Source: a virus. Taken from it: a stretch of DNA of 49,049 nt. The translations under genes were made by a program, and so were the position numbers. The DNA is taken from positions 1 through 49,049 of IMG/VR virus record IMGVR_UViG_3300005265_000033; one strand, written 5' to 3'. This document shows positions 2,676 to 49,049 of this stretch, piece by piece. The first letter of the stretch is position 1. Each line of letters starts with the position of its first letter. Under the pieces are notes generated by a model. That model had not been told where the DNA came from and did not search any database. It worked only from the letters and a program-made list of their open reading frames with translations.

Positions 2676-3911
2676 TTACCATTCTACGAAGGCGAATCCG
2701 GGCAGAGTCGATCCCTTCCTCAAACCCCATGCGGCAAGTGCAAGGGCTATCACGCAGTCGTCGTGGAAACCTCTCGGAGCACTGTATTTATGCTTTCCAG
2801 TTGAAGTCGTCTCAACGCCGAACACCTCAAGCTCGTTGAGAAGCTCAGGGATCTCTGGAAATGTTATCTCACCCTGCTCGAGCATCAGAGCGAGGTTGTC
2901 TATGAGCGCGACCTTCTTGCTTGGGCTCAGGTAATAAGGCTTCACCCTCGTGTACATCTGGAGAATGAAGTCGTAGATAGGGTCTCCCAATCCAGTTGAG
3001 TCTATGTAGAGCTCAGCGTTGTATTGACTTGCCAGATTGATGACTCTCTTGACCTGCAAAGGCCAGTCAACGCTCTTGAATCTGTCGAACGCCACGAGGT
3101 GACCATGCTCATCCAGAATGCAGATGACCGTGAAGTCAGTCCTCTTGCCAAAATCCACTCCAGCTATATATGCTTTATCGCTGCTTGGAGGCTCAAAATC
3201 TCCCTTGATATTTATTATCCTGTTGTTGTTCGGGTTCCTCCTGAACCTGAACACTGAACCGAGATCGGAAAGGAACTCAGCGCCGTATTCCTGCCTGAAC
3301 AGACGCTCAGGCATTCCTTTCCTCGCAGACTCTATCTCTTTTGGATCGATGAATGGATTTGTCCAGGTTGGAAAATGAAAGCTCTCCCACTCTCCTCCCT
3401 TGATATTGCCCATCATGTATATCTCGTAGAACCAATTCATGCCCTGAGGGGTGGAGATGAATAATGCTTTGCCGAACTTGTCTGGATCGGAGAGGCGAGG
3501 TCTGACACATTCGAACCACACATCTCGCTTCATCCTCGCACACTCGTCAAGCACAACGAAGTCGAGACCCTGAGCTCTCAGATGCTCGTAATCCTCAGCG
3601 CTTTTGAACCATATCCAGCCGTCATTTATCATCCTGACAGCCTTCTCGGAGTGGTTTATCTTCGCAATTAAAGCTTTGGGAACCTCTTCAAGAAACATCC
3701 TCCATGCGACCAGAACTTCAGACCATGAAGGAGCCAACCACCATATCTTCGCCTTAGGTTTGCCGAGATACCACAAACATTCGTAGACTCCCATCTTGGT
3801 CTTTCCCCACCTCACCCCTGCACGCACAACTCTGAATCTCGCATTGCTCCTATGCACTTTTATCTGGCCTGGATGAGGCTTGTAGTCGATCACTACTTGC
3901 TGGACTGACAT
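2676..3911 (-). CDS. terL: Terminase large subunit
   Basis: The packaging motor: its ATPase drives genome translocation into the prohead and its nuclease cuts the DNA. From ATG 3911 (411 aa) there is a Walker A with GKT at 36-38 (context RAGVRWGKTK), a Walker B 'VVLDE' at about 119-123 and a coupling motif STPQG at about 153-157. The RNase H-like nuclease domain shows Asp253 (AGVDFGKRTD), Asp304 (YIDSTGLGDP) and an Asp pair near the C-terminus (GFHDD). The frame stays open upstream to an ATG at 3998. ATG 3911 is chosen because GGAGGTGAGG lies directly upstream and the extra Cys-rich 29 residues do not look like a terminase N-terminus. It sits between the phosphoesterase and portal genes in the head operon. 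Confidence 0.93.
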   Translation of the reverse strand: MSVQQVVIDYKPHPGQIKVHRSNARFRVVRAGVRWGKTKMGVYECLWYLGKPKAKIWWLAPSWSEVLVAWRMFLEEVPKALIAKINHSEKAVRMINDGWIWFKSAEDYEHLRAQGLDFVVLDECARMKRDVWFECVRPRLSDPDKFGKALFISTPQGMNWFYEIYMMGNIKGGEWESFHFPTWTNPFIDPKEIESARKGMPERLFRQEYGAEFLSDLGSVFRFRRNPNNNRIINIKGDFEPPSSDKAYIAGVDFGKRTDFTVICILDEHGHLVAFDRFKSVDWPLQVKRVINLASQYNAELYIDSTGLGDPIYDFILQMYTRVKPYYLSPSKKVALIDNLALMLEQGEITFPEIPELLNELEVFGVETTSTGKHKYSAPRGFHDDCVIALALAAWGLRKGSTLPGFAFVEW

Positions 3912-16335: not shown

Positions 16336-16610
16336 TGGTTGTCGTCAGATTCAGCAAATACCGTGCGAATAAACTCGATCTCGAAGTGAAGACGAAGATA
16401 AAGAGGATAGCGAGGCGAGGAGATGAAGTGGAGATAGAGTTCGAGGGTAACCCGTCTGGTGCTGAGTTACTCGAAATAGCAAGAAGGCTTGGTCTGCACA
16501 AGATAGAAACGGTTGCTGGAGAAAAAATGAGGAAGTTGTTGCGATCTCGTCTTCCAGAGCCAAGACGTACTGTCATCAAGAGACTTCAACGCAGAAACAA
16601 ATCCTCTTGA
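16335..16610 (+). CDS. Small basic protein ending the tail operon
   Basis: 91 aa from ATG 16335, overlapping the hub stop by one base (a GTG at 16326 would add 3 residues). Very basic (MVVVRFSKYRANKLDLEVKT; C-terminus RLPEPRRTVIKRLQRRNKSS). No domain recognised. Its last 35 bases overlap, in antisense, the end of the papain-like protease gene, so the two operons converge with no spacer and no obvious terminator. Confidence 0.6.
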   Translation: MVVVRFSKYRANKLDLEVKTKIKRIARRGDEVEIEFEGNPSGAELLEIARRLGLHKIETVAGEKMRKLLRSRLPEPRRTVIKRLQRRNKSS

Positions 16611-17412
16611 TTATCTCTATTATCCACCTTATCAGCTTCTCGAGTAAGCTTTCTGGCTCTGGTTCTTCTTCTTGTTCTTGTTCCTCCTCGTTTTTCTGTT
16701 CTTCCTCTTCTTGTTCCTGTTCATTCTCAGTCTCAGTTTCTTGCTCCTCTTCTTCCTCAGGCTCAGGCACTGGTTCAGCTTCAGCTGGTTCTGGATCTAC
16801 TTCTATTGCAAACATTGTCCTCGAAACATTACACGTCCCGTACTTCATCCATGCGTAACCATTCATGCCCCAATCTTCTCCCCAGCTATTTCTGATCAAC
16901 CACGCTCCTTTCTCATCATCATATCCAACAACGACGACACAATGCACACCCAGATAAGCATCTTCATCAAGCGGATGATAGACTCCACTCTTGTAGTGTA
17001 GAAAGCTCTGATACACTCGCATGATTGTGATCAGAGGACCGTTCTTCAACAGCTCTTTCATCTCGTTCTCATCATAGACGTATCTCCAGCTCTTTATCCT
17101 GTATGCTCCTTGCTTCCATGTCTCACATGGTTCCTCCTTACACTCCTTATTTCTACCAGTGTATGGAGAGCATTCCTCCCTACAGATGTAATTCTTCGCT
17201 TGATCCAATATTTTGTGCATGTAAGCGCCTGAATAGCAGTCTCCACCAGCACAGAAAAAGAGGTGTCCCTCTGATAAATCAACATCAATCTCTTTCTTCT
17301 TCGCTATCTTCAAATGAGCCTCAATGCACCCTATGGTGCCGAATGCTGGGCATGCACCGCATGAGCCTTGATCCCTCACAGGTGAACAATAGTCTCTCCA
17401 ATCCACACTCAT
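16576..17412 (-). CDS. Papain-like (C1A) cysteine protease with acidic tail
   Basis: 278 aa. Residues 1-205 are a compact papain-family domain: oxyanion Gln15 and nucleophile Cys21 in QGSCGACPAFG, catalytic His157 (LGVHCVVVVGYDD) and Asn175 (LIRNSWGEDWGMNGYAWMKYG). The residue after the nucleophile is Pro instead of the nearly invariant Trp. Several further Cys suggest disulphides. No signal peptide or pro-region is present. Residues about 207-255 are a Glu/Gln-rich linker and 256-275 an amphipathic/hydrophobic helix (SLLEKLIRWIIEIIKRI) that could contact membrane. Possible roles are host lysis, surface-protein degradation or capsid maturation. The preceding gene overlaps it by 4 bases and may supply the pro-domain. 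Confidence 0.88.
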   Translation of the reverse strand: MSVDWRDYCSPVRDQGSCGACPAFGTIGCIEAHLKIAKKKEIDVDLSEGHLFFCAGGDCYSGAYMHKILDQAKNYICREECSPYTGRNKECKEEPCETWKQGAYRIKSWRYVYDENEMKELLKNGPLITIMRVYQSFLHYKSGVYHPLDEDAYLGVHCVVVVGYDDEKGAWLIRNSWGEDWGMNGYAWMKYGTCNVSRTMFAIEVDPEPAEAEPVPEPEEEEEQETETENEQEQEEEEQKNEEEQEQEEEPEPESLLEKLIRWIIEIIKRICFCVEVS

Positions 17413-17720
17413 TCTCTAACTCCTCCAGCAACCCTCTTCTGAATGTGTGGAGGAAGTTTGCCCACCCTCGTCTCTCCTATCTCGAAGTCCTCAGACGATA
17501 GCTCAACGACATCAGTCTTTATCCCACCTATCCTTGACGGTATGAGCTCCCCAGACCTGAGTTCAGAAACCTTGACCTTCTTCTTAACGAACACGGTTAT
17601 ACATGGTTCTCCAGTATCCTTTCCCTGCTTGATCTTGGTTAAATCATATCTCCAGCTCAGCACGTTAGACTTGCTTTTTATTAACTTATCAACTTCCTCT
17701 TCCCTAATCCACATACTCAT
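17409..17720 (-). CDS. Small beta-rich protein, possible partner or pro-domain of the protease
   Basis: 103 aa (ATG 17720; ATG 17714 is better spaced from GGAGGTGA). It reads 'NVLSWRYDLTKIKQGKDTGE', 'PCITVFVKKKVKVSELRSGE', 'LIPSRIGGIKTDVVELSSED'. This pattern (G.PCITVFVKKK...IPS.I.G..TDV.E) is characteristic of the N-terminal region of some bacterial and archaeal trypsin-like/Nal1-type proteins, here without the catalytic part. Because the papain-like gene follows with a 4-base overlap and lacks its own pro-region, this protein may act as a separate chaperone or inhibitor. That is inference. Confidence 0.6.
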   Translation of the reverse strand: MSMWIREEEVDKLIKSKSNVLSWRYDLTKIKQGKDTGEPCITVFVKKKVKVSELRSGELIPSRIGGIKTDVVELSSEDFEIGETRVGKLPPHIQKRVAGGVRE

Positions 17721-27573: not shown

Positions 27574-29184
27574 TCACTTCATATACTCCAATAACTTGAA
27601 GAATTGGATCGGAAGTTCTGAGATTTCCTGTGTGAATGTGAATATGTTCGGGATTCTGGTGAGCTCTTCAACGAATGGAACTTCGAGAACCCTCAAGGAT
27701 TTTGATAAGAGTAGAACTCCAACCTTCTTTCCCGAGTTTCTATATTCGTTTATCATTTTGAGGGAGAGATATGTGTCTCCTGGCATTCCATCCGTCATCA
27801 CAACGAGCCTGTCTATGTTGACCATGTATGGAGAAAGCTTGCGAAGAATATAACCCAATGGGGTTCCTCCTTCAGACTCGAGACCAGCTATCCTCTCCTT
27901 TGCGTTCAGGTCGAATGGGATATGGAGGTCTTTTATGAGGGATAATGCTTGGCCTGAGAATGATATTATGGAAAATTCGATGCCGATGTAGTCGAGCGCG
28001 GAAGTGATGATCGCAAGTGCCTGCCTGTACATCTCGTTATACCCTTCTGTCGAAGCAGACATGTCAACGAGGAAGAGGAATTTGCCTTCCGGTCTCAGCT
28101 TTCTCTCGTCTATGAAGAACTTTGGTCTCTCGTATGACCTGTAGTGCCTTGAGAGGAGGTAGGATTCAGGCTCGATATCGTCGCCCACATGTCCCAAAGC
28201 CTCAACCCATCCAACTTTCCACTTCATGAGATTGGTCTTGAGGATCTCTGCCTGAGCTTTCACGGGAGAGTATATTTCTTCCCAGTCGCCTCTCTGCCTC
28301 TGCACAGAGCCGCCAAACAGGCCTGCCGATGCCTCCATCACCTGCATCTGCTCTTCGTATTTCTTGATGTATTTTTTCACTTCTTCAAACTCTGAGAGGA
28401 TGAACTGCGGAGCTTCTATTTTTATTTCCTTTCCCGTTTCCAGAGTTTGAGGAAGCACAGTGTATTTTATCTCTTCAATGGAAAAAGCGCCTATAGGTTC
28501 GACCCATAAGTCTTCCAGAATGTTGTATGCAAGGATGACCGAGTTTATCAGGTCGTCCACAGTCTCGATCTTCTCCATGATCTTCTTTACTTTGAGGAGC
28601 CTTCTGGTCCACTTGGTCTGCCTTTTCGGTTTGTAATCGAACAGGAGAATGCCTATCATCAAATTTGTGAGCCTGAGTGCCCTTATTGAGTTGTCTGTGA
28701 GGAGGTTGAGAGTTGATGCCAGTGAAGGTATGTTTGCCAATGCGATTTCCGTACCTCTTCTTCCGATCTCTTTCATGAATTCCTTCTCTTCTTCGTATTT
28801 GTAATCCCTCAAGCCAAGCTTTTCAATCCTGTAGTCCTCAAAGATGTCGATAAGGTTCATGAGGAGCTTTTCCTTTCTGATGTATGAGATATATGTAGGT
28901 TTGCTGGATAGGAGCATGTCCCGTGCTGATTCGAATATGTCTTTCCTATCAGGGGAGAACCTTATGTGCTGAGCCTCGTGCCAGGCGGAGAACCTGAAGA
29001 ACCTCCATCTTCTCACATCGTATAAGTTGAGTTCTTTTTCGTTTGGTATTCTTTCAAGGTAGCTTGGAAGGTGAATTATCTTTGTCTCTGGATGTGCATA
29101 GAACCAATAAGCTCTATATATTCTTACGTTCTTATCTTCGCTCCATGCACGTGCCAGGAAGGAGAGGACTTCGTCAGGGTTCAA
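27574..29184 (-). CDS. VWA-domain protein with N-terminal metallopeptidase-like domain
   Basis: 536 aa from TTG 29184 (GGGGGA upstream). The N-terminal region has HEAQH at 69-73 (SAWHEAQHIRF) and 'EDYRIE' at 116-121, the combination seen in the metallopeptidase-like domains of CobT-type VWA proteins. The middle is helical. Residues about 365-536 form a von Willebrand A domain with MIDAS residues DMSAS (374-378), Thr441 (GGTPLG) and Asp465 (MTDGMPGD). It is partnered with the MoxR-type AAA+ ATPase two genes upstream, the classic MoxR-VWA pair used for protein remodelling or metal insertion. Confidence 0.85.
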   Translation of the reverse strand: MNPDEVLSFLARAWSEDKNVRIYRAYWFYAHPETKIIHLPSYLERIPNEKELNLYDVRRWRFFRFSAWHEAQHIRFSPDRKDIFESARDMLLSSKPTYISYIRKEKLLMNLIDIFEDYRIEKLGLRDYKYEEEKEFMKEIGRRGTEIALANIPSLASTLNLLTDNSIRALRLTNLMIGILLFDYKPKRQTKWTRRLLKVKKIMEKIETVDDLINSVILAYNILEDLWVEPIGAFSIEEIKYTVLPQTLETGKEIKIEAPQFILSEFEEVKKYIKKYEEQMQVMEASAGLFGGSVQRQRGDWEEIYSPVKAQAEILKTNLMKWKVGWVEALGHVGDDIEPESYLLSRHYRSYERPKFFIDERKLRPEGKFLFLVDMSASTEGYNEMYRQALAIITSALDYIGIEFSIISFSGQALSLIKDLHIPFDLNAKERIAGLESEGGTPLGYILRKLSPYMVNIDRLVVMTDGMPGDTYLSLKMINEYRNSGKKVGVLLLSKSLRVLEVPFVEELTRIPNIFTFTQEISELPIQFFKLLEYMK

Positions 29185-29185
29185 G

Positions 29186-29437
29186 CTATTTCCCCCTTAT
29201 TTTGAGGGGTTTAACTATCACGTATGTTGGTTTCACTTTTATTATGACGCACTCGACCACATCTCCAGGTTTTATCTCGTAGGAAAGTGGATCATACTTT
29301 GCAAAGAGGACTATCTTGCCATTTGCGAGCCTGCTTATCGGAAGACCTCCCTCTTTCCCTTCCTGCGCAACCACTATCAGCTCATCGTCTATGCTTTCGG
29401 TTATCTGGTATGATTCTTCGAGGAAGTCAAGAGTCAT
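29186..29437 (-). CDS. TRAM/OB-like small protein between MoxR and VWA genes
   Basis: 83 aa from ATG 29437 (ATGA overlap with the MoxR stop; a longer frame to 29545 lacks coding character). Beta-rich: 'DDELIVVAQEGKEGGLPISR', 'GKIVLFAKYDPLSYEIKPGD', 'VVECVIIKVKPTYVIVKPLK'. The block '...IKPGDVVEC.I.KVK..Y.I.' is typical of TRAM domains, OB barrels that bind RNA or act as chaperone platforms in archaea. One base from the VWA gene start. Confidence 0.65.
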   Translation of the reverse strand: MTLDFLEESYQITESIDDELIVVAQEGKEGGLPISRLANGKIVLFAKYDPLSYEIKPGDVVECVIIKVKPTYVIVKPLKIRGK

Positions 29438-30447
29438 TCTTCTATCCTCCCCAACTTGCTCTCTAACAACTCGGTTGCCTGCATCTTCACAGTTTCTCCC
29501 CATTGCGCATATACTTCTACCAGGACCATGTTTATTGCGGTCCATTCCTTGATGCCTGATGCAAGGAGGCGAGCTATCGCTATGCTTTCTCGAATGCTTG
29601 GGATGTATGGTAACTCGGTCTTTCTCAGAAACTGCATTGCCTTGATGATTTCTACCATCTCGGATGAGTATTTGCTTATCTCAGGGACGTGCAGTTTAAC
29701 GATGTTGTATTCCGTGCTGATGTCAGGGTATCTGAGTTCCAGCTTGACAGGGAAACGTGATATTATCTGCGCTGGAAGCATTTTGGTGCCTAAGTGAAGT
29801 CTGTCAAGTGGGTTGATAGATGCGACGCACCACCATCCCTCTTTCGCCCTGAATGTCCTGCCTTCAACGTTTATCTCTTTCCTGTGGTCTAATGCCTCAT
29901 CGACCCGAACAAGGACATCGGGTTCCGCCACTGAAAGTTCGTCAAAATAACAGATCCCTCCCTCTTCCATGCTGAGGATCAACGGTCCCTTCTTGAAGTA
30001 TAAGTTGCCTTCCTGAGTAGTATCGAGCCTGCCTATTATATGATGCTCCCTTGTCCTCAGGGAGCATGGAATGATTCGGAGAGGTTTGTGGAGTAGCTCA
30101 GCTGTCTTTCTGATACTTTCGGTTTTTCCCACTCCTGCTGGGCCAATTAACAACACATTCAGTCCCAGCTCATAGCACTTCAAAAGCTTGCTGACCACAT
30201 GCTGCCAATCGTCGTAAATAACGTTCTGAGGGATGAGGCTGTTTTCTTGTTCTGTCTCTACCTTGCCAGATATGTTAACTGATACCCAGACGTCTCTTCC
30301 CACTTTCTTTATCTGTCCTGTGCTTCTCAGGACATTGAGCTCCCTGAGCAGGTCTCTTGGAGACGCTGAAAGCTTTGCTGATAGGTCGCTTACCTTCCAG
30401 TCTCCTTTCTCTCTAAAACACTCAATTATCTGATCTCTCAAATTCAT
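29434..30447 (-). CDS. MoxR-type AAA+ ATPase with N-terminal winged helix
   Basis: 337 aa. Residues 1-55 are a winged helix ('WKVSDLSAKLSASPRDLLRE', 'LNVLRSTGQIKKVGRDVWVS'). The AAA+ core has Walker A GPAGVGKT at 102-109, Walker B 'GGICYFDELSVAE' at about 164-176, and a MoxR-like insertion 'ALDHRKEINVEGRTFRAKEG' before sensor 1 'CVASINP'. C-terminal helical lid to 337. MoxR ATPases act with VWA proteins as chaperones. Among archaeal viruses, Acidianus two-tailed virus encodes a MoxR-type ATPase and a VWA protein that interact; a similar role here is inferred. Confidence 0.88.
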   Translation of the reverse strand: MNLRDQIIECFREKGDWKVSDLSAKLSASPRDLLRELNVLRSTGQIKKVGRDVWVSVNISGKVETEQENSLIPQNVIYDDWQHVVSKLLKCYELGLNVLLIGPAGVGKTESIRKTAELLHKPLRIIPCSLRTREHHIIGRLDTTQEGNLYFKKGPLILSMEEGGICYFDELSVAEPDVLVRVDEALDHRKEINVEGRTFRAKEGWWCVASINPLDRLHLGTKMLPAQIISRFPVKLELRYPDISTEYNIVKLHVPEISKYSSEMVEIIKAMQFLRKTELPYIPSIRESIAIARLLASGIKEWTAINMVLVEVYAQWGETVKMQATELLESKLGRIEE

Positions 30448-41702: not shown

Positions 41703-42920
41703 TCACTCCCCAACAAAATACATTAATTCCCTGAAGTCCATTGCTTCGTCAGCCTTCTCCCTTATCTCTTCGAGGTTCACTTCCTCGAATTTCTTGGATT
41801 TGGGCTGGACGCTCTTCTTGATCACTTCCTCAGCATTCTCCAGACCAAGCTCTTTGACTATCTCAGCCTTCAGCTTGTTAAACTCTTCAACTGCCTTCTT
41901 ATACTCTTCCTCGTTCTCAAAGTCCTCTTTCTCCGGATACTTGTAGTAATAATATTCTGGTTTTTTCTTTTTCTTCTTCGCTTTCTTTTCCTCGTCTTCC
42001 TCTTCCTCATCCTCAGGCTTGGCTTTGTTCTTCTTCTTCCACTCAAGAGCACATTCCTTCATGCTCTTCCCTGACTTCATGCAATTCTTCATGAAGCTCT
42101 TGTAAGACTCCTTATCCACAACGTCGAGGATCGCAGCGAAGTCCTCCATCTCCTTCTCGAGCTTCTTCTCGTTCTCAGCGCGCACTATCACTTCGTTGAG
42201 CTTCCCGGTGAGCTTCTTGACTTCTTCGATGAGCGTCGCTACTTCAGCTTTCTCGATTTTCTCTTCTTCCTCCATTTTTGATCGCTCTTCTTTTAATATA
42301 TGCGTATTAATAAATGTTTCACCAAGTCCCTCATCCCAATCCTCATCAGCGTTATCCTGCTTTTCCAGAATAAACGCTTTAGCTTTCGGATTTTTCCCCT
42401 GATCACATGACGTGACTTCGTAGAGTTCAAGCCTCACTATCTCGGTCCAGCATTTGTTCTCATCACACTTGACTTCACGGCCACCCGGAAGCACCCTTCC
42501 TCCTATGCTGAAGGACATCAACTCTCCTTTCTTCATCCTCTCAATGACTTCCTTTCCAGTGACCGTATCATCGAATACCTCCGCGACGATGAATAATCCC
42601 TTATCATCCACTCCAGACTTCCAGACTTTTCCGTTCTTATCAACATACTTCGGCAGTATTTCTCCTATCTGGATGTTCTGGTGATGAAGCATCAAATTGC
42701 GCCTTGACTCTCTCTTCATCATCTTCTCGAAAGCTTCTTTGAGAGCCTCTGGAGTGATCTTCTCATTGTCCTTATCCACAATGTTTACCGAAGCATAGCC
42801 TGCGATAACAAATCTGGACTTCTCAGACTTGAGAACAAAACAGGGCGCTGAGTAATAAACAGCCTCCTGAAATGCATACTCAGACGCCTGTTCCATCGGA
42901 ACCAAGACGTATTCGCTCAT
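41703..42920 (-). CDS. Prohead protease fused to scaffold-like region
   Basis: 405 aa from ATG 42920 (ATGA overlap with the preceding gene; ATG 42944 would add 8). Residues about 35-180 are a U35-type prohead serine protease: 'VIAGYASVNIVDKDNEKITP', catalytic His in 'NLMLHHQNIQIGEIL' (79/80) and Ser in 'ELMSFSIGGR' (about 136-138). The remaining ~220 residues are Lys/Glu-rich coiled coil ('VATLIEEVKKLTGKLNEVIV', 'PEDEEEEDEEKKAKKKKKKP'), typical of a scaffold that is cleaved off during maturation. Confidence 0.88.
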   Translation of the reverse strand: MSEYVLVPMEQASEYAFQEAVYYSAPCFVLKSEKSRFVIAGYASVNIVDKDNEKITPEALKEAFEKMMKRESRRNLMLHHQNIQIGEILPKYVDKNGKVWKSGVDDKGLFIVAEVFDDTVTGKEVIERMKKGELMSFSIGGRVLPGGREVKCDENKCWTEIVRLELYEVTSCDQGKNPKAKAFILEKQDNADEDWDEGLGETFINTHILKEERSKMEEEEKIEKAEVATLIEEVKKLTGKLNEVIVRAENEKKLEKEMEDFAAILDVVDKESYKSFMKNCMKSGKSMKECALEWKKKNKAKPEDEEEEDEEKKAKKKKKKPEYYYYKYPEKEDFENEEEYKKAVEEFNKLKAEIVKELGLENAEEVIKKSVQPKSKKFEEVNLEEIREKADEAMDFRELMYFVGE

Positions 42921-45865
42921 CCTCTCACCTGCACTCCCTGCCACTCAATATATGGTTTAAAGTCAAACTCTCTTTTAATTCTTTCGATGCTCCAGACATT
43001 CTTATCAAATTTAAGGGACTGAATCCTAGCACCGTGTACAGTTCCAGGTCTCGGGTACAGGCAGATGTTAGCCTCGACTCCTTCAGGCAGTTTGGGTATC
43101 TTATACCTCTTAGCTTTCTCCTCGCTTTCACATCTCGTAAAATCTCTTATATCATGCAGGTGAATTCTGATGAACGTGGCTTTATCTTCATATTTTAATT
43201 CTTTCTCCATCCCCGGCAAGGCTGACCTTATGAACCTCCATGTCTTACCATCAGACTTAAGCACGTAATAACCCTTCAATGAATCTCCATGAAACATGAA
43301 GCTCCTGAACAGCTGAGACTTCTCTATGAAATCCACCTTTCCTCTATCGAGGATATGAACATCAGTCCATACTCCTCCAACCTTCCTCTTGCCCTCAGCC
43401 TCCATCCATGCCTTATCATAACATTTCTTCAGCATAACAACTTCAGACTCGTCTATGCCATACTTTCTCGGATCCTTCTTCAAAGACCATTCAATGAGGT
43501 AGTCTTCTCCCTCGTCTATCCTGATATCGAAATGCGAGCCTCCCTTCCATACATGCCTCTGCAGTACGAAACTCCCTGATGCTTTCTTGATGTTAGACTT
43601 GCTGAAGGAATAGAGGTCGGAACCTCGTTCTTCCTGCTCAAGCTTCCAGAACTTGCCTAGCTTACCTGAGAACGAGAGTATCAGCACTTCCTTACCATTT
43701 ACCCTCTTAGCATCAACATATACAGTTCCCTTATCAAGTATCCTTACATCTGCATTGAGTCTCTTGCGAGGATTGAATAGCTCACCAGGCTTCAGCTTTC
43801 CTTCATACTCGAACCACTTCTTAGGAGCCTGACCTATATATCCAGCAGCAGTTGGATGCACATATAGAGGATTGTACCATAGCTCCCAAGTCCTTATCTT
43901 GTTCCCCTGCTTGATATTTAAGAACCAATACATCACAGGGATATCTCTGATGACTTTCTGACCCTTCCAGCTCATCTGCTGCAACGAGTATTCAGCCTCA
44001 GCCTTCAATAACTCCTTAGTCTCGCCCCATCTTTCTTTCACCCATTCAAACCATTCCTCGAACTTCTGCCTGTTCTTCTCTATCCACCACTTGGGTATCG
44101 GTATGAAGCCTTTAGGAGGAACCCATCCAGTTCTCTTACCTCTCTTGACAGCGTATGGATCTTGATCACGAGGCACCCAAGTCTCCCACATCAGCTCGAA
44201 CTTGCCGGGTTTAGGCTTCTTCGTCTCGGGGTCTATGACAGCCTGCTTGACAGCCCTCATATTCACTCGTATCTTCTCAAATGTCAGCTTATGCTTCTTC
44301 TTAGCTATCGAGTCCAAGAAGTACTCATGATACCATGGTTTCTGAGCTCCAAATGTAACATATCCCTTATCAACGATCAGGAATCTACCTGGTTTATATC
44401 TCGTAGCACCAACAGACCCCGGTTTAACCTCAAACGTCTCACCCGTATCCATCTTCACAATAAGCTTGTCTAAGCTCTCTATCACTTCATATGAGTCCCC
44501 CACATCGAACTTCCATAGCTGATCGAATGGGACAACTGAGCCTCCCTTCCAGAATAACCATGTTTTGGGCTGCCTAGCTTTGGTCTCACATCTGCATTTC
44601 CTATTGTTCATGCCGGGAACAGGTCTGAATGTCCAATCGAGTTTGTTGATCAAAGAGGGTAACTCATCAAGTGTGGGAGCATGGTCTATTTTCGGATTAT
44701 CGAGGATCGTATTATGAGCGAGTATCTTGCCAACGCCAGCTATGAATGTCCCGTCCTCAGTCTCAAAATCATAAACGTAGCAGTTCCTGCCTCGATTGAC
44801 TTTGTAGATATCGATTATCTCATCCGGTGGCTTTAGTGGCTTCCGCTTTCTCCCATAAACATAGACATTAAGCGAATTATACTTCCTCACCGAACTTATT
44901 CCGAAATCTCTTCCTCGATTCGTCTCTAAGAATAGAATCCCAGCTCCTAAAGCCTTAGAATGAATCGAAAAGCTCATACCAGACCCATCTGGATGTCCAT
45001 CTCCTGTATAGAATCCGTCTAAGAAGGCATCTCGTGCATCCTTATCGGCATTTAGTATTAATTTAGGTACGATTTTATAACGACGATGAGTCGAAGTATT
45101 CTTATTTACAACATAACATAGATTAAAGAATAAGGGCTGAGCCCATAATATGCGGAGTCGCCAGCAATTCTTATCCTGTCTCTCAATCCTTGAGGGAATG
45201 CCGAACTTTATTAGCTTCCGCTTTGCTAATTTAAGCTTGCTCAAATCCTCATCTGAAATCCATGCTTCCCACTGTTTTCTTCGTGCGGCGTAACCATCTG
45301 CACAGAAGTATCCCAAAAGCCATGCCCAATCTTTGTCAACCTCCAGATTCGGGATATCTACTTGAAGTTCAGCTAAATCTATAGAATCGCCTTTCTTGAG
45401 ATCCCCAGCTCTTATTGGAGTTCCGTTCTGGAATAATGAATGAGAGGGCGTAACTTCTATGGCTCCCCGTCTAGTCACGACTCTCACGAGATCATGTTCA
45501 AAGATGTGCCTAGCAGCTCGTTTCACCTTCCTGAATCCGTTTCCGGTGAGAATTTCTAATCCATCCACTTCTTTTTTTATTTCAAACCCTATTCCATCAA
45601 AATTTATGACGCATTCTGCTGGAAGAATCTCGATCATTCCGTTTCGTCTTACGATTACTGGTTCATCGAAAGCCACGCTCCAACCTATCAGGTGATTGTT
45701 CACTTCCAGCCTGAAGTCCCAATGCACACTTCGACTTCTCCAGTGATGCTGCAGCACATACCTCACTTTGCCATTCTTCTCATTTGGAGGAAGCTCTAAG
45801 TATATAGGTCTAGACCACGGTATTTCAGGCTCTCCTTTCAATAACAAATCCCGCGTTATCCTCAT
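42917..45865 (-). CDS. Double 3'-phosphoesterase (LigD_N-like) protein with intein
   Basis: 982 aa as translated (659 after splicing). ATG 45865 overlaps the ligase-fusion stop by 4 bases; an ATG at 45907 would add 14. Residues 36-62 carry the start of a LigD 3'-phosphoesterase (PE) domain: 'YVLQHHWRSRSVHWDFRLE' with His40/41, His48, Asp50, Arg52, ending '...HLIGW', where the intein interrupts (residues 63-385). The exteins resume 'TILDNPKIDHAPTLDEL'. A second PE domain lies at about 763-885: 'FVLQRHVWKGGSHFDIRI' (His771, His778, Asp780, Arg782) and 'GYYVLKSDGKTWRFIRS'. The large middle (about 390-760) is unassigned, with one more PE-like C-terminal half ('VRILDKGTVYVDAKRVNGKE'). PE domains remove 3' phosphates or ribonucleotides before ligation. 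Here they follow the ligase gene in the head operon. Confidence 0.85.
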   Translation of the reverse strand: MRITRDLLLKGEPEIPWSRPIYLELPPNEKNGKVRYVLQHHWRSRSVHWDFRLEVNNHLIGWSVAFDEPVIVRRNGMIEILPAECVINFDGIGFEIKKEVDGLEILTGNGFRKVKRAARHIFEHDLVRVVTRRGAIEVTPSHSLFQNGTPIRAGDLKKGDSIDLAELQVDIPNLEVDKDWAWLLGYFCADGYAARRKQWEAWISDEDLSKLKLAKRKLIKFGIPSRIERQDKNCWRLRILWAQPLFFNLCYVVNKNTSTHRRYKIVPKLILNADKDARDAFLDGFYTGDGHPDGSGMSFSIHSKALGAGILFLETNRGRDFGISSVRKYNSLNVYVYGRKRKPLKPPDEIIDIYKVNRGRNCYVYDFETEDGTFIAGVGKILAHNTILDNPKIDHAPTLDELPSLINKLDWTFRPVPGMNNRKCRCETKARQPKTWLFWKGGSVVPFDQLWKFDVGDSYEVIESLDKLIVKMDTGETFEVKPGSVGATRYKPGRFLIVDKGYVTFGAQKPWYHEYFLDSIAKKKHKLTFEKIRVNMRAVKQAVIDPETKKPKPGKFELMWETWVPRDQDPYAVKRGKRTGWVPPKGFIPIPKWWIEKNRQKFEEWFEWVKERWGETKELLKAEAEYSLQQMSWKGQKVIRDIPVMYWFLNIKQGNKIRTWELWYNPLYVHPTAAGYIGQAPKKWFEYEGKLKPGELFNPRKRLNADVRILDKGTVYVDAKRVNGKEVLILSFSGKLGKFWKLEQEERGSDLYSFSKSNIKKASGSFVLQRHVWKGGSHFDIRIDEGEDYLIEWSLKKDPRKYGIDESEVVMLKKCYDKAWMEAEGKRKVGGVWTDVHILDRGKVDFIEKSQLFRSFMFHGDSLKGYYVLKSDGKTWRFIRSALPGMEKELKYEDKATFIRIHLHDIRDFTRCESEEKAKRYKIPKLPEGVEANICLYPRPGTVHGARIQSLKFDKNVWSIERIKREFDFKPYIEWQGVQVRG
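44711..45679 (-). other. Intein with LAGLIDADG endonuclease (323 aa)
   Basis: In-frame insertion with splicing signature: first residue Ser (SVAFDEPVIVRRNGMIEI), block B 'VTPSHSL' with TxxH, two LAGLIDADG-type motifs 'LLGYFCADG' (121-129) and 'FLDGFYTGDG' (219-228), and C-terminal 'VYDFETEDGTFIAG' then 'ILAHN' followed by Thr. The Ser1, penultimate His, terminal Asn and Thr+1 fit class-1 splicing. It sits exactly at the conserved Trp of the phosphoesterase active-site motif, so the enzyme should be inactive until splicing. Both endonuclease motifs keep an acidic residue, so homing activity is plausible. Confidence 0.9.
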
Positions 45866-48800
45866 TCTTCTCGCCACGCATAATAATACGGTTTGACCCT
45901 TCTGCATTTATAATAATTAGCGAGTTTACAATCAATAGGATATTTAAGCTCCTGAACTCTGAGCTTGACATCTTTGGACTTCCACACTCCATTCACGAGT
46001 ATCTTTATCCTGTTTATTAAGGGGCATATTTCCTCGTCAAATGCATAGGGACATGGAGGAAGCTTGATCTCTATAACCTTCTCATCAGCTTTCTCAGTTC
46101 GCTCATAAGGCCTCGTCCCAAGCTTCGAAAGCTTCTCCACAACATCAATTGGATCAGGCTCCTTCTTCTCAGGTCTCCACAGCCCAGCCTTAGGGAACAT
46201 CCATGCGAAAAATACCTTATTATCTTCCTCGCCTCTCTCTATGCGTATAGGCATCACGGTCAAAATGCTACCTTCAGGTCTTTTCCCTTTCACGTTATAA
46301 CATGTGCCAATTCTCAAATATTTCTTACCCCTGAACTCTATAACATCTCGTTCTCTGTATTTGCTTAAGTCCTTCTCCGGTATTGGTCCCACAACGCCTT
46401 GCCATGTGAACACATCCTTGGTCCCTCTTACCAGATGAGGCTTGAGAACCATAACTTCAATTTCCTTTAAATTTTTCAACTTTGCGAGTTCCTTATTCCT
46501 TGCTGCTCTATCATACCTTATCTTATAAACTGAGTCAGTTACTTTAAACACAGCGCCTTCAGAGTTCGGGAAATACCTCGCCCATTTCGCATATTTGAAG
46601 AACTCCCTCATGTTATGAGCAGTCCTAGACTCCACAACATGGAAATGCTTGCCTTCCTTCAATATCTCCTTAAGCTTCTCATACCGCTCTATCGCAGGCT
46701 TTTGAGTATAGTCTTCTCCATTCAGATATAACAAGTCATGCATATGAAATATTACTCGACTATCATCAAGGCTACTTGGTCTGGCTGCGATCCACTTGAC
46801 CAAGTCCTCTCTCGGAATCTGCCTATATTTAGTCCACAGCTTATCATTCTCTGGATACTCAACATCGTTAGAGTACTCGACCATCTCAGCGACTAAGATA
46901 GCATCCTTAGCTTTTAATAACTCAGGTAACTCAGCAGAAGACTCTCTGAACGCATCAATCCTATTCCTCAGTTGATCCTCAGTGAAGAATCCAATTGGCT
47001 TTCCGTTCTTAACATGTATCTGAAAGCTCATGCCGTCATACTTAGGCTGAACCATGATGCCTCTGTCAATCCTTGAAGCAGCCCACTTTGCCCATGCATT
47101 CTCTATCTTCCAGAACTCATTCTTCTGCCAGCCACTAGCAGGTTTCTGAGGCTGAGAAGGCTTCCCTAACCTCAATCCCTTATCCTTCTCAAGCTTTCCT
47201 TCCCTCTGCACGTAAAGCGGTATCGAGATACCAATGCCTCCCCTCGTATCAAATATGAACTCAAGCTTCTCCCTGATATCATTCCTCGTACAAGCATGGA
47301 TCAATACTCGTTTAACTTCTGGCAAATATTCATCAGAAGCTATGCGAATGTCTATGTCGTGATGAGATACCCATCCTCTATTAGCAAGTCCTCCGACGAG
47401 GTAAATTGCCGGTACATCGGCTGGAAGCTTGATAATATCTGGGAATGAATCAATTACCTCATGAAGCGTGATCTTCTTCTCTTCCTTCTCCCATGGAGGA
47501 TACTCCTGAATCCAGAACCTAGCTTCCTGACTCAATTTATCGTTTATGCTTCGTTCAATCCCTCGCTTCTTCATTTCATTCTCTACAAATATCTCAGCGT
47601 TAAGAAGAGGCTCAGTAACCTTCTTCTCCTCTTCATAAATTTCATGAAGCTTCTCGTATAGCTTCACAAGCTCTTTATCACTAAGCTTTTCTACATGTTC
47701 ATCATCTATCTCTTCTAAATTAATGGATTTACTAACCTTAACGGAAGTGGTCCATCCATCATAAGCCATTTCAGCCCCTAACTCAGCAAGCTTCTTCTCA
47801 AGCTCTTTACCCAGCTTGATAGGTTCAGATCCAAAATGAGTGAAGATGATGCGCTTCACATTTGCTTCTTTACACCACTTTATCTGTTGGGGAATCCCTG
47901 CGTGACCAACAGCCTCATCTCTCTCCTCATCCCACCTTGTCAGACCATCTTCTCTGAGTGTTGATCCATCCCCGATGTATAGATCACAATTGGTCAAGAA
48001 CCTGTCTCGGTGCTCTTTCCGTATGCTCAGCACATCAGAAGCATAGCAGATCCTGTATCCTCCAGCATTGATGAATAATGCGATGTTAGGAGCCTTAGAG
48101 GAATGAAGGACAGGGACGCTTATGACTTCTATATCTCCAATCCTGAATGCGCTCCTGCGCTTGAACACCGTCTTGTTAAACTTGTAATCATCCTCTTCAT
48201 AATACTCGGAGTGAGTCGTGGCGTCTGTGATGAATACAGGAACCTTCACATCTTTGCCTTTGAGACCAAATAGGTGATCTGGGTGCGCATGCGTGACAAT
48301 TATTGCATCGCATTCAGGAAGCGCTCCGTTCACATCGCCCCAATCAATCAACAGCCTCGTCTTACCATCATCTATCAACAGAGAAGCTCTCTTGTTGTGC
48401 AATTCAGACTTCTCGTCAACGTAGCCTCTCGTACCAAGAAACTTCAAGAGGACATCGGACTTGTTGAGTCTTGGTATCTTGGTCGGGTAATTAGATATCA
48501 AGAGCTCTCGCTTGATGGGATAATTGACATTCTTGGCTCTCTTTGTTAGAAAACTTTTTACTTCGAATCCTGCATTCTTGAATAATTTCTTGATGAGAGG
48601 ATCATCACTGAAGCTCAACAGAAATTTACCCTTTATCTTCCTGCATGCTTCAAATAGCCTCTTCTTGAAAGCTTCCGGGTCCTCGTTCTTAATATCCTCG
48701 TCCATGTATGGAGGATCAAGGTAGAAGAACGTATCTGGAGAGTCATATTTCCTTATTATTTTTTCAAAGTCTTTATTTTCAATAATAGTATTTTTTAAAC

Positions 48801-49049
48801 GCTGTCTATAATCCTCAGGTTGAGTGATGTAGCCGCATCTGATTCCTTCCCTCTTCCTATGCGCAAAGCTTTCCATACACCCTCCATAAGAGTGCATGTT
48901 GAGATATATGAGCTTATAAGCTCTTTCAACGTCATCTCTGGGGTCCAATTTCTTGAGCTTGTTGAATTTCTCTTCGGATGGGGAATAATCCTTATTCTTA
49001 AGCCTCTCTAATTGTTCATCAGACGCATTCTTCAAAAACCTCAGTAAGA
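45862..49049 (-). CDS. Dam methylase/MBL/nucleotidyltransferase/DNA ligase fusion (continues from position 909)
   Basis: Main part of a 1,330-aa protein whose start is at 909 across the terminal repeat; numbering is for the full protein. Dam-type adenine methylase about 212-465, catalytic DPPY at 380-383 (FFYLDPPYMDED). Metallo-beta-lactamase fold about 468-713: HAHPDH at 522-527, His584, Asp607, His673. Nucleotidyltransferase-like unit about 810-880: 'YLVGGLANRGWVSHHDIDIR' with Asp833 and Asp835. ATP-dependent DNA ligase about 915-1200: nucleotidyl Lys938 in QPKYDG, 'LVAEMVEYS', EGAVFK at 1099-1104, then an OB-like end. A C-terminal ~100 residues with Cys/Tyr is unassigned. Portal gene lies before it; the double phosphoesterase overlaps by 4 bases. 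Together they look like a DNA protection and end-joining kit carried in the head. Function is inferred. Confidence 0.9.
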   Translation of the reverse strand, partial: LLRFLKNASDEQLERLKNKDYSPSEEKFNKLKKLDPRDDVERAYKLIYLNMHSYGGCMESFAHRKREGIRCGYITQPEDYRQRLKNTIIENKDFEKIIRKYDSPDTFFYLDPPYMDEDIKNEDPEAFKKRLFEACRKIKGKFLLSFSDDPLIKKLFKNAGFEVKSFLTKRAKNVNYPIKRELLISNYPTKIPRLNKSDVLLKFLGTRGYVDEKSELHNKRASLLIDDGKTRLLIDWGDVNGALPECDAIIVTHAHPDHLFGLKGKDVKVPVFITDATTHSEYYEEDDYKFNKTVFKRRSAFRIGDIEVISVPVLHSSKAPNIALFINAGGYRICYASDVLSIRKEHRDRFLTNCDLYIGDGSTLREDGLTRWDEERDEAVGHAGIPQQIKWCKEANVKRIIFTHFGSEPIKLGKELEKKLAELGAEMAYDGWTTSVKVSKSINLEEIDDEHVEKLSDKELVKLYEKLHEIYEEEKKVTEPLLNAEIFVENEMKKRGIERSINDKLSQEARFWIQEYPPWEKEEKKITLHEVIDSFPDIIKLPADVPAIYLVGGLANRGWVSHHDIDIRIASDEYLPEVKRVLIHACTRNDIREKLEFIFDTRGGIGISIPLYVQREGKLEKDKGLRLGKPSQPQKPASGWQKNEFWKIENAWAKWAASRIDRGIMVQPKYDGMSFQIHVKNGKPIGFFTEDQLRNRIDAFRESSAELPELLKAKDAILVAEMVEYSNDVEYPENDKLWTKYRQIPREDLVKWIAARPSSLDDSRVIFHMHDLLYLNGEDYTQKPAIERYEKLKEILKEGKHFHVVESRTAHNMREFFKYAKWARYFPNSEGAVFKVTDSVYKIRYDRAARNKELAKLKNLKEIEVMVLKPHLVRGTKDVFTWQGVVGPIPEKDLSKYRERDVIEFRGKKYLRIGTCYNVKGKRPEGSILTVMPIRIERGEEDNKVFFAWMFPKAGLWRPEKKEPDPIDVVEKLSKLGTRPYERTEKADEKVIEIKLPPCPYAFDEEICPLINRIKILVNGVWKSKDVKLRVQELKYPIDCKLANYYKCRRVKPYYYAWREE
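48946..49049. repeat. Right copy of 104-bp terminal direct repeat
   Basis: Exact copy of bases 1-104. Removing one copy gives a 48,945-bp unit in which the methylase-ligase gene is uninterrupted (1,330 codons plus stop) and the head operon is continuous. Confidence 0.97.

Follow-up and report, generated by a model that had tools for sequence, protein, structure and literature searches.

A two-gene unit of a small NAL1_N-like protein and a C1A protease without a pro-region in eleven viral contigs

A gene for a small NAL1_N-like protein and a gene for a papain-family (C1A) protease without a pro-region were found next to each other in the window (the whole stretch of 49,049 nucleotides analysed here, from IMG/VR virus record IMGVR_UViG_3300005265_000033) and in 10 further viral contigs. 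This two-gene unit across viruses is a new observation. Since the pair is kept in eleven divergent viruses, the likely job of the small protein is to fold, restrain or direct the enzyme. We see about an even chance that the two genes form a module in which the small protein would bind the protease in trans and replace its pro-domain, as folding aid, inhibitor or both. The features concerned are listed in Table 1.

Table 1. Positions of the pair and its features in the window.
Feature	Position	Strand	Basis
Small protein with NAL1_N-like domain, proposed pro-domain or partner	17409..17720	(-)	103 aa; Pfam, PHROG, profile, fold
Hinge motif QKRVAGGVRE, C-terminus of small protein	17412..17441	(-)	alignment of 10 relatives
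ATGA stop/start overlap of small gene and protease gene	17409..17412	(-)	junction table
C1A papain-family protease	16576..17412	(-)	278 aa, no pro-region; PF00112 and PDB matches
Gln15 codon, oxyanion hole	17368..17370	(-)	invariant, 10-homologue alignment
Cys21 codon, nucleophile, followed by Pro22	17350..17352	(-)	Cys invariant, 10-homologue alignment
His157 codon, catalytic	16942..16944	(-)	invariant, 10-homologue alignment
Asn175 codon, catalytic	16888..16890	(-)	invariant, 10-homologue alignment
Glu/Pro-rich flexible linker, residues about 207-255	16648..16794	(-)	disordered in model, pLDDT <50 at 220-250
C-terminal amphipathic helix, residues 256-277	16582..16647	(-)	helical in model

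The initial annotation had named a C1A protease with Cys21, His157 and Asn175 intact, and this identification was well supported. The catalytic domain (protease residues 2-199) matched PF00112 in Pfam with an E-value of 9.5e-42, cathepsins C, K and B were the nearest solved structures in the PDB, and an AlphaFold2 model (pLDDT 81) showed the papain fold, with Foldseek matches to cathepsins C/B/K at E-values of about 1e-16. An alignment of 10 sequences showed that the order Gln/Cys/His/Asn was retained in the window protease and its homologues, with Gln15 intact as well. With this complete catalytic set, family identity and residues confirm the window protease as a C1A enzyme. In alignment its first residues, Met1-Ser-Val-Asp-Trp-Arg, coincided with the start of mature cathepsin K. 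Because the ORF begins at the mature papain N-terminus, the pro-region is absent, as had been noted before; 20 residues precede Cys, and the same chain holds no I29-type pro-region. A zymogen with an I29-type pro-region is typical of eukaryotic C1A members and is not required of the family. By eye, no signal peptide was apparent in the protease or in the small protein.

Viral contigs often encode C1A enzymes, as a scan with the motif NSWGxxWGxxGY matched at least 119 viral stretches, and C1A peptidases in tailed viruses have already been described (PMC10380794). Thus, the earlier remark that such an enzyme is unusual for a tailed archaeal virus does not hold when applied to viruses in general. 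From the matches listed and other loci we assembled a comparison set of 127 distinct enzymes in which Cys and His were present; a few came from plasmids or a cellular genome. The residue after the nucleophile in this set was Trp in 10, Thr in 80 and Val in 23. The window protease does carry Pro at this position, as had been claimed, but the altered active site is not special, since Trp was missing in 117 of the 127 enzymes and throughout the pair-bearing clade, where the position is P, S or T. Among the sampled enzymes, Pro itself was found only here. An inactivating effect of this Pro is unsupported, as no catalytic residue is lost and the helix begins at Cys21 in the model; Pro is tolerated within the first turn of a helix.

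The Glu-rich linker and amphipathic end helix of the initial annotation appeared as disorder and helix, respectively, in the model, and the helix had a hydrophobic moment of 0.77 (shuffle p 0.0016). The Pro/acidic linker is present, though variable, in most of the protease relatives in the 10-sequence alignment, and amphipathic tails of a similar kind were found in 11 of 11 pair proteases, with that of L119 being marginal (p 0.053). A second conserved C1A tail, roughly PSPCxxGN...LN....LxxRKGRFYYxN, was observed in L119, L133, L134, L140, L141, L144 and L177, where it stands in place of the window-type amphipathic helix, the L133 version being more diverged.

By sequence profile and predicted fold, the small protein is a relative of the rice NAL1 N-terminal domain. 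It matched PF25608 (NAL1_N) with an E-value of 2e-5 and 24.7 bits against a curated cut-off of 27 bits, and its relative in L133 scored 31.6 bits, over that cut-off. A profile built from 10 relatives found rice NAL1 in the PDB (E 6e-6), and the best 32 Foldseek rows for the model were NAL1 chains without exception. The predicted fold, from a model of moderate confidence (pLDDT 71, and below 50 in the C-terminal part), aligned 73 residues with NAL1 residues about 87-173 (Z 7.8, rmsd 2.5), compared to Z 4.9 or less for unrelated folds in the same comparison. Additionally, the small protein matched phrog_20754 'protease' (E 6e-13), which fits its similarity to the protease of Aeropyrum coil-shaped virus. 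The initial annotation had described a beta-rich protein resembling the N-terminal part of Nal1 without a catalytic domain; the likeness and the missing catalytic domain stand, as the ORF ends after the hinge and the chain contains no trypsin-fold domain, while the predicted structure is an alpha/beta domain and not purely beta-rich. Across the 10 relatives the C-terminus consists of QKRxAGGV plus basic residues, and fused NAL1_N-trypsin-type proteins (ACV, Clostridiaceae and G016 sequences) have a similar R-x-R-P-x-x-x-G-x-S where their catalytic domain begins. Since the QKRxAGGV end resembles the stretch entering the catalytic domain in these fused relatives, the small gene stops at the domain boundary. 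NAL1_N homologues met outside the pair were the N-terminal part of trypsin-type proteins. Of 80 genomes from the phylum to which the single cellular C1A match belongs, 1 had NAL1_N, inside a trypsin-type protein. Among known pro-regions, the best fold match of the small protein was alpha-lytic protease 2pro, a likeness that was set aside because its Z of 3.9 is at noise level.

The two genes overlap by four bases at an ATGA, as first described, but this is not distinctive, since 4-nt overlaps are ordinary in the window genome (14 of 57 junctions). Of the 10 small gene-protease pairs listed, 7 had a 4-nt NTGA overlap. A programmed frameshift leading to a fusion protein was rejected, because frame and spacing differ among the pairs (-4, -14, -11/-20, +1), and no slippery site common to their junctions was seen. 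No fused NAL1_N-C1A protein was found among the sampled viral loci or two plasmid C1A loci.

A hunt for the same pair in other viruses yielded the contigs L002, L137, L119, L132, L133, L134, L140, L141, L144 and L177. With the small protein as a lone query against viral contigs, nine loci were obtained, and in 9 of 9 the gene lay directly upstream of a pro-region-less C1A protease, leaving no unlinked homologue among them. Eight were pairs already found, and the ninth, L177, was new, with genes overlapping by 14 nt. Most of the pair proteases share 30-45% identity with that of the window, and the two genes occur side by side in at least six gene neighbourhoods. For example, in the window, L002 and L137 it follows a Holliday-junction-resolvase-like gene and faces tail genes, and in L119 it lies between a probable neck gene and a probable tail-tube gene, names that rest on position and size with no PHROG match. 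In L133, genes for portal and QueT lie to one side of it and methyltransferase and head-maturation-protease-like genes to the other. It lies downstream of capsid and terminase in L141 and near a sugar-nucleotide epimerase-like gene in L134, and is surrounded by non-structural genes in L132, L144 and L177 as far as these stretches were read. The L133 gene directly upstream of the pair (2952-3377), in a viral contig, is of the QueT transporter type. Distance matrices of the small protein and the protease are correlated (r 0.56, permutation p 0.00015), a result to be expected from shared inheritance alone.

Presence of the small gene and length of the protease N-terminus were complementary in the sampled set. 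Among enzymes with a complete start, the small gene was upstream in 9 of 10 with 40 or fewer residues before Cys, and in 1 of 113 with more than 40. That one is L133, where an overlapping ATG gives about 21 residues before Cys. The short enzyme without a partner is L047, a doubtful exception with two adjoining C1A reading frames. Proteases of the pair thus have practically no N-terminal extension, whereas sampled viral C1A enzymes outside the pair had at least 42 residues before Cys, except L047, and a partner in none. The resulting table (9/1/1/112) gave a Fisher p of 7.5e-12 for the sampled set, a value that counts relatives, overstates independence and does not reflect independent events, because all pair-bearing proteases fall into one clade (support 0.94-0.99). 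The clade therefore indicates a single origin and long persistence of the pair, not repeated origin.

We propose that the first gene encodes a stand-alone NAL1_N-type domain and the second a C1A protease starting at its mature N-terminus, both of which would be made together from adjacent, usually overlapping frames, probably with translational coupling. The small protein would bind the protease in trans, with its QKRxAGGV tail at the position from which a fused version would continue into the catalytic domain. It may aid folding of the protease and/or hold it inactive until deployment, while the linker and end helix could tether the enzyme to a surface such as that of a membrane or particle. 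This pro-domain reading is favoured because partner and N-terminal extension are complementary in the sampled viral C1A enzymes, and it is held to about one half because we know of no pro-domain or inhibitor role described for NAL1_N so far. Thus, of the enzyme with a detached pro-domain-like partner suggested at the outset, the linkage survives and the chaperone or inhibitor role is plausible. We put forward more tentatively, at clearly less than even chances, that NAL1_N is a control domain across unrelated protease folds, serving a papain-type enzyme of diverse tailed viruses here, in trans, as its pro-domain or inhibitor.

The small protein could instead remain part of the active enzyme as a subunit, a detached NAL1 N-terminal domain serving substrate recruitment, oligomer assembly or targeting. 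Its conservation and adjacency fit this equally well, and the homologous domain remains attached to the protease domain in solved NAL1 structures and is therefore not a removed pro-peptide in NAL1. We regard a lasting subunit as rather unlikely but a real contender; a pro-domain substitute would account slightly better for the complementary pattern of partner and N-terminal extension, and nothing else separates the two. Chance adjacency of unrelated genes through viral genome compactness would agree with the frequent 4-nt overlaps in the window, but adjacency held in 11 viruses, at mostly 30-45% identity and in differing gene orders, makes this highly improbable and close to refuted.

Other roles for the pair appear improbable. 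A protease directed against host proteins or a competing element, with the small protein protecting the virus or cell until lysis, would suit a compact two-gene unit found in varying neighbourhoods like a moron cassette, and plasmid-borne bacterial C1A genes do have I42 inhibitor genes nearby. Against such a toxin-and-restrainer pair, for which we see only a small chance, PADLOC gave no defence-library match, no lysis or toxin genes were recognised near the pair, and the partner gene lies upstream, not downstream. The PADLOC result also removed the candidate of a defence-system protein. Host-envelope breakdown, the function originally suggested, found no backing, given the lack of a signal peptide by eye, the lack of recognised lysis genes beside the pair and the varying neighbours. 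Slightly less probable than the toxin-and-restrainer pair is a role in virion morphogenesis, in which the pair would mature head or tail proteins; the settings in L119, L133 and L141 speak for it, but the window already encodes an S78-family prohead protease (41703-42944), a resolvase-like gene precedes the pair in the window, L002 and L137, and the neighbours read in L132, L144 and L177 are non-structural.

The window protease has catalytic Gln/Cys/His/Asn, fold and mature N-terminus in common with papain and cathepsins (MEROPS C1A, PF00112), but differs from them in lacking a same-chain I29 pro-region and an evident signal peptide, in the replaced Trp and in the added C-terminal linker and amphipathic helix. 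The small protein shares a homologous N-terminal alpha/beta domain and a similar hinge with rice NAL1 and prokaryotic or viral NAL1_N-trypsin-type proteins (e.g. Aeropyrum coil-shaped virus ORF326); in these a trypsin-type serine protease follows the domain in one chain, whereas the window encodes the domain on its own, next to a protease whose fold is unrelated. CTLA-2, BCPI and crammer are stand-alone pro-domain-like inhibitors of C1A enzymes, and staphostatin, Spi and I42 chagasin-like proteins are gene-adjacent inhibitors of papain-fold proteases. Like the window protein, these are small and separately encoded, sometimes by a neighbouring gene, and control papain-fold proteases, a role only proposed here, but they belong to other families and folds, and the partner gene of the window lies upstream. 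C1 peptidase genes with nearby I42-family inhibitor genes were observed in L005 and L006 (Deinococcus and Streptomyces plasmids), and L005 also carries a caspase-family gene near the C1 peptidase. Xylellain-type C1A peptidases of Caudoviricetes (PMC10380794) are likewise tailed-virus C1A enzymes, with Thr common after Cys. They have a same-chain N-terminal extension, a QGxLGSCTAN-type motif and no NAL1_N neighbour, while the window protease has QGSCGACPAFG, no extension and a place in a separate clade.

If the proposal holds, diverse tailed viruses carry a control partner for C1A proteases, which would add a protease-plus-regulator cassette to tailed-virus accessory genes. Rice NAL1 is an important yield gene, and to our knowledge the role of its N-terminal domain in rice and in prokaryotic relatives has not been settled so far. 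A split NAL1_N beside another protease fold would be a clean system, as two small soluble proteins could easily be co-expressed and the effect of the domain measured.

The archaeal host assumed in the initial annotation stands as a candidate only. The window terminase matched phages of Thermus and other bacteria at about 32%; the capsid protein and an OB-fold protein gave no matches in similarity searches for the host. Elsewhere in the window, all on the minus strand, a Midasin/NorQ-like AAA ATPase (27574-30447) lies near a weak VWA-domain protein, forming a MoxR/VWA-like pair. A 996-aa protein (42917-45907) that resembles LigD phosphoesterase near its N-terminus probably carries an intein, as it also has a C-terminal intein splice motif and a LAGLIDADG domain. 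A 1057-aa protein (45862-49035) combines D12-type DNA methyltransferase, metallo-beta-lactamase-fold and ATP-dependent DNA ligase domains.
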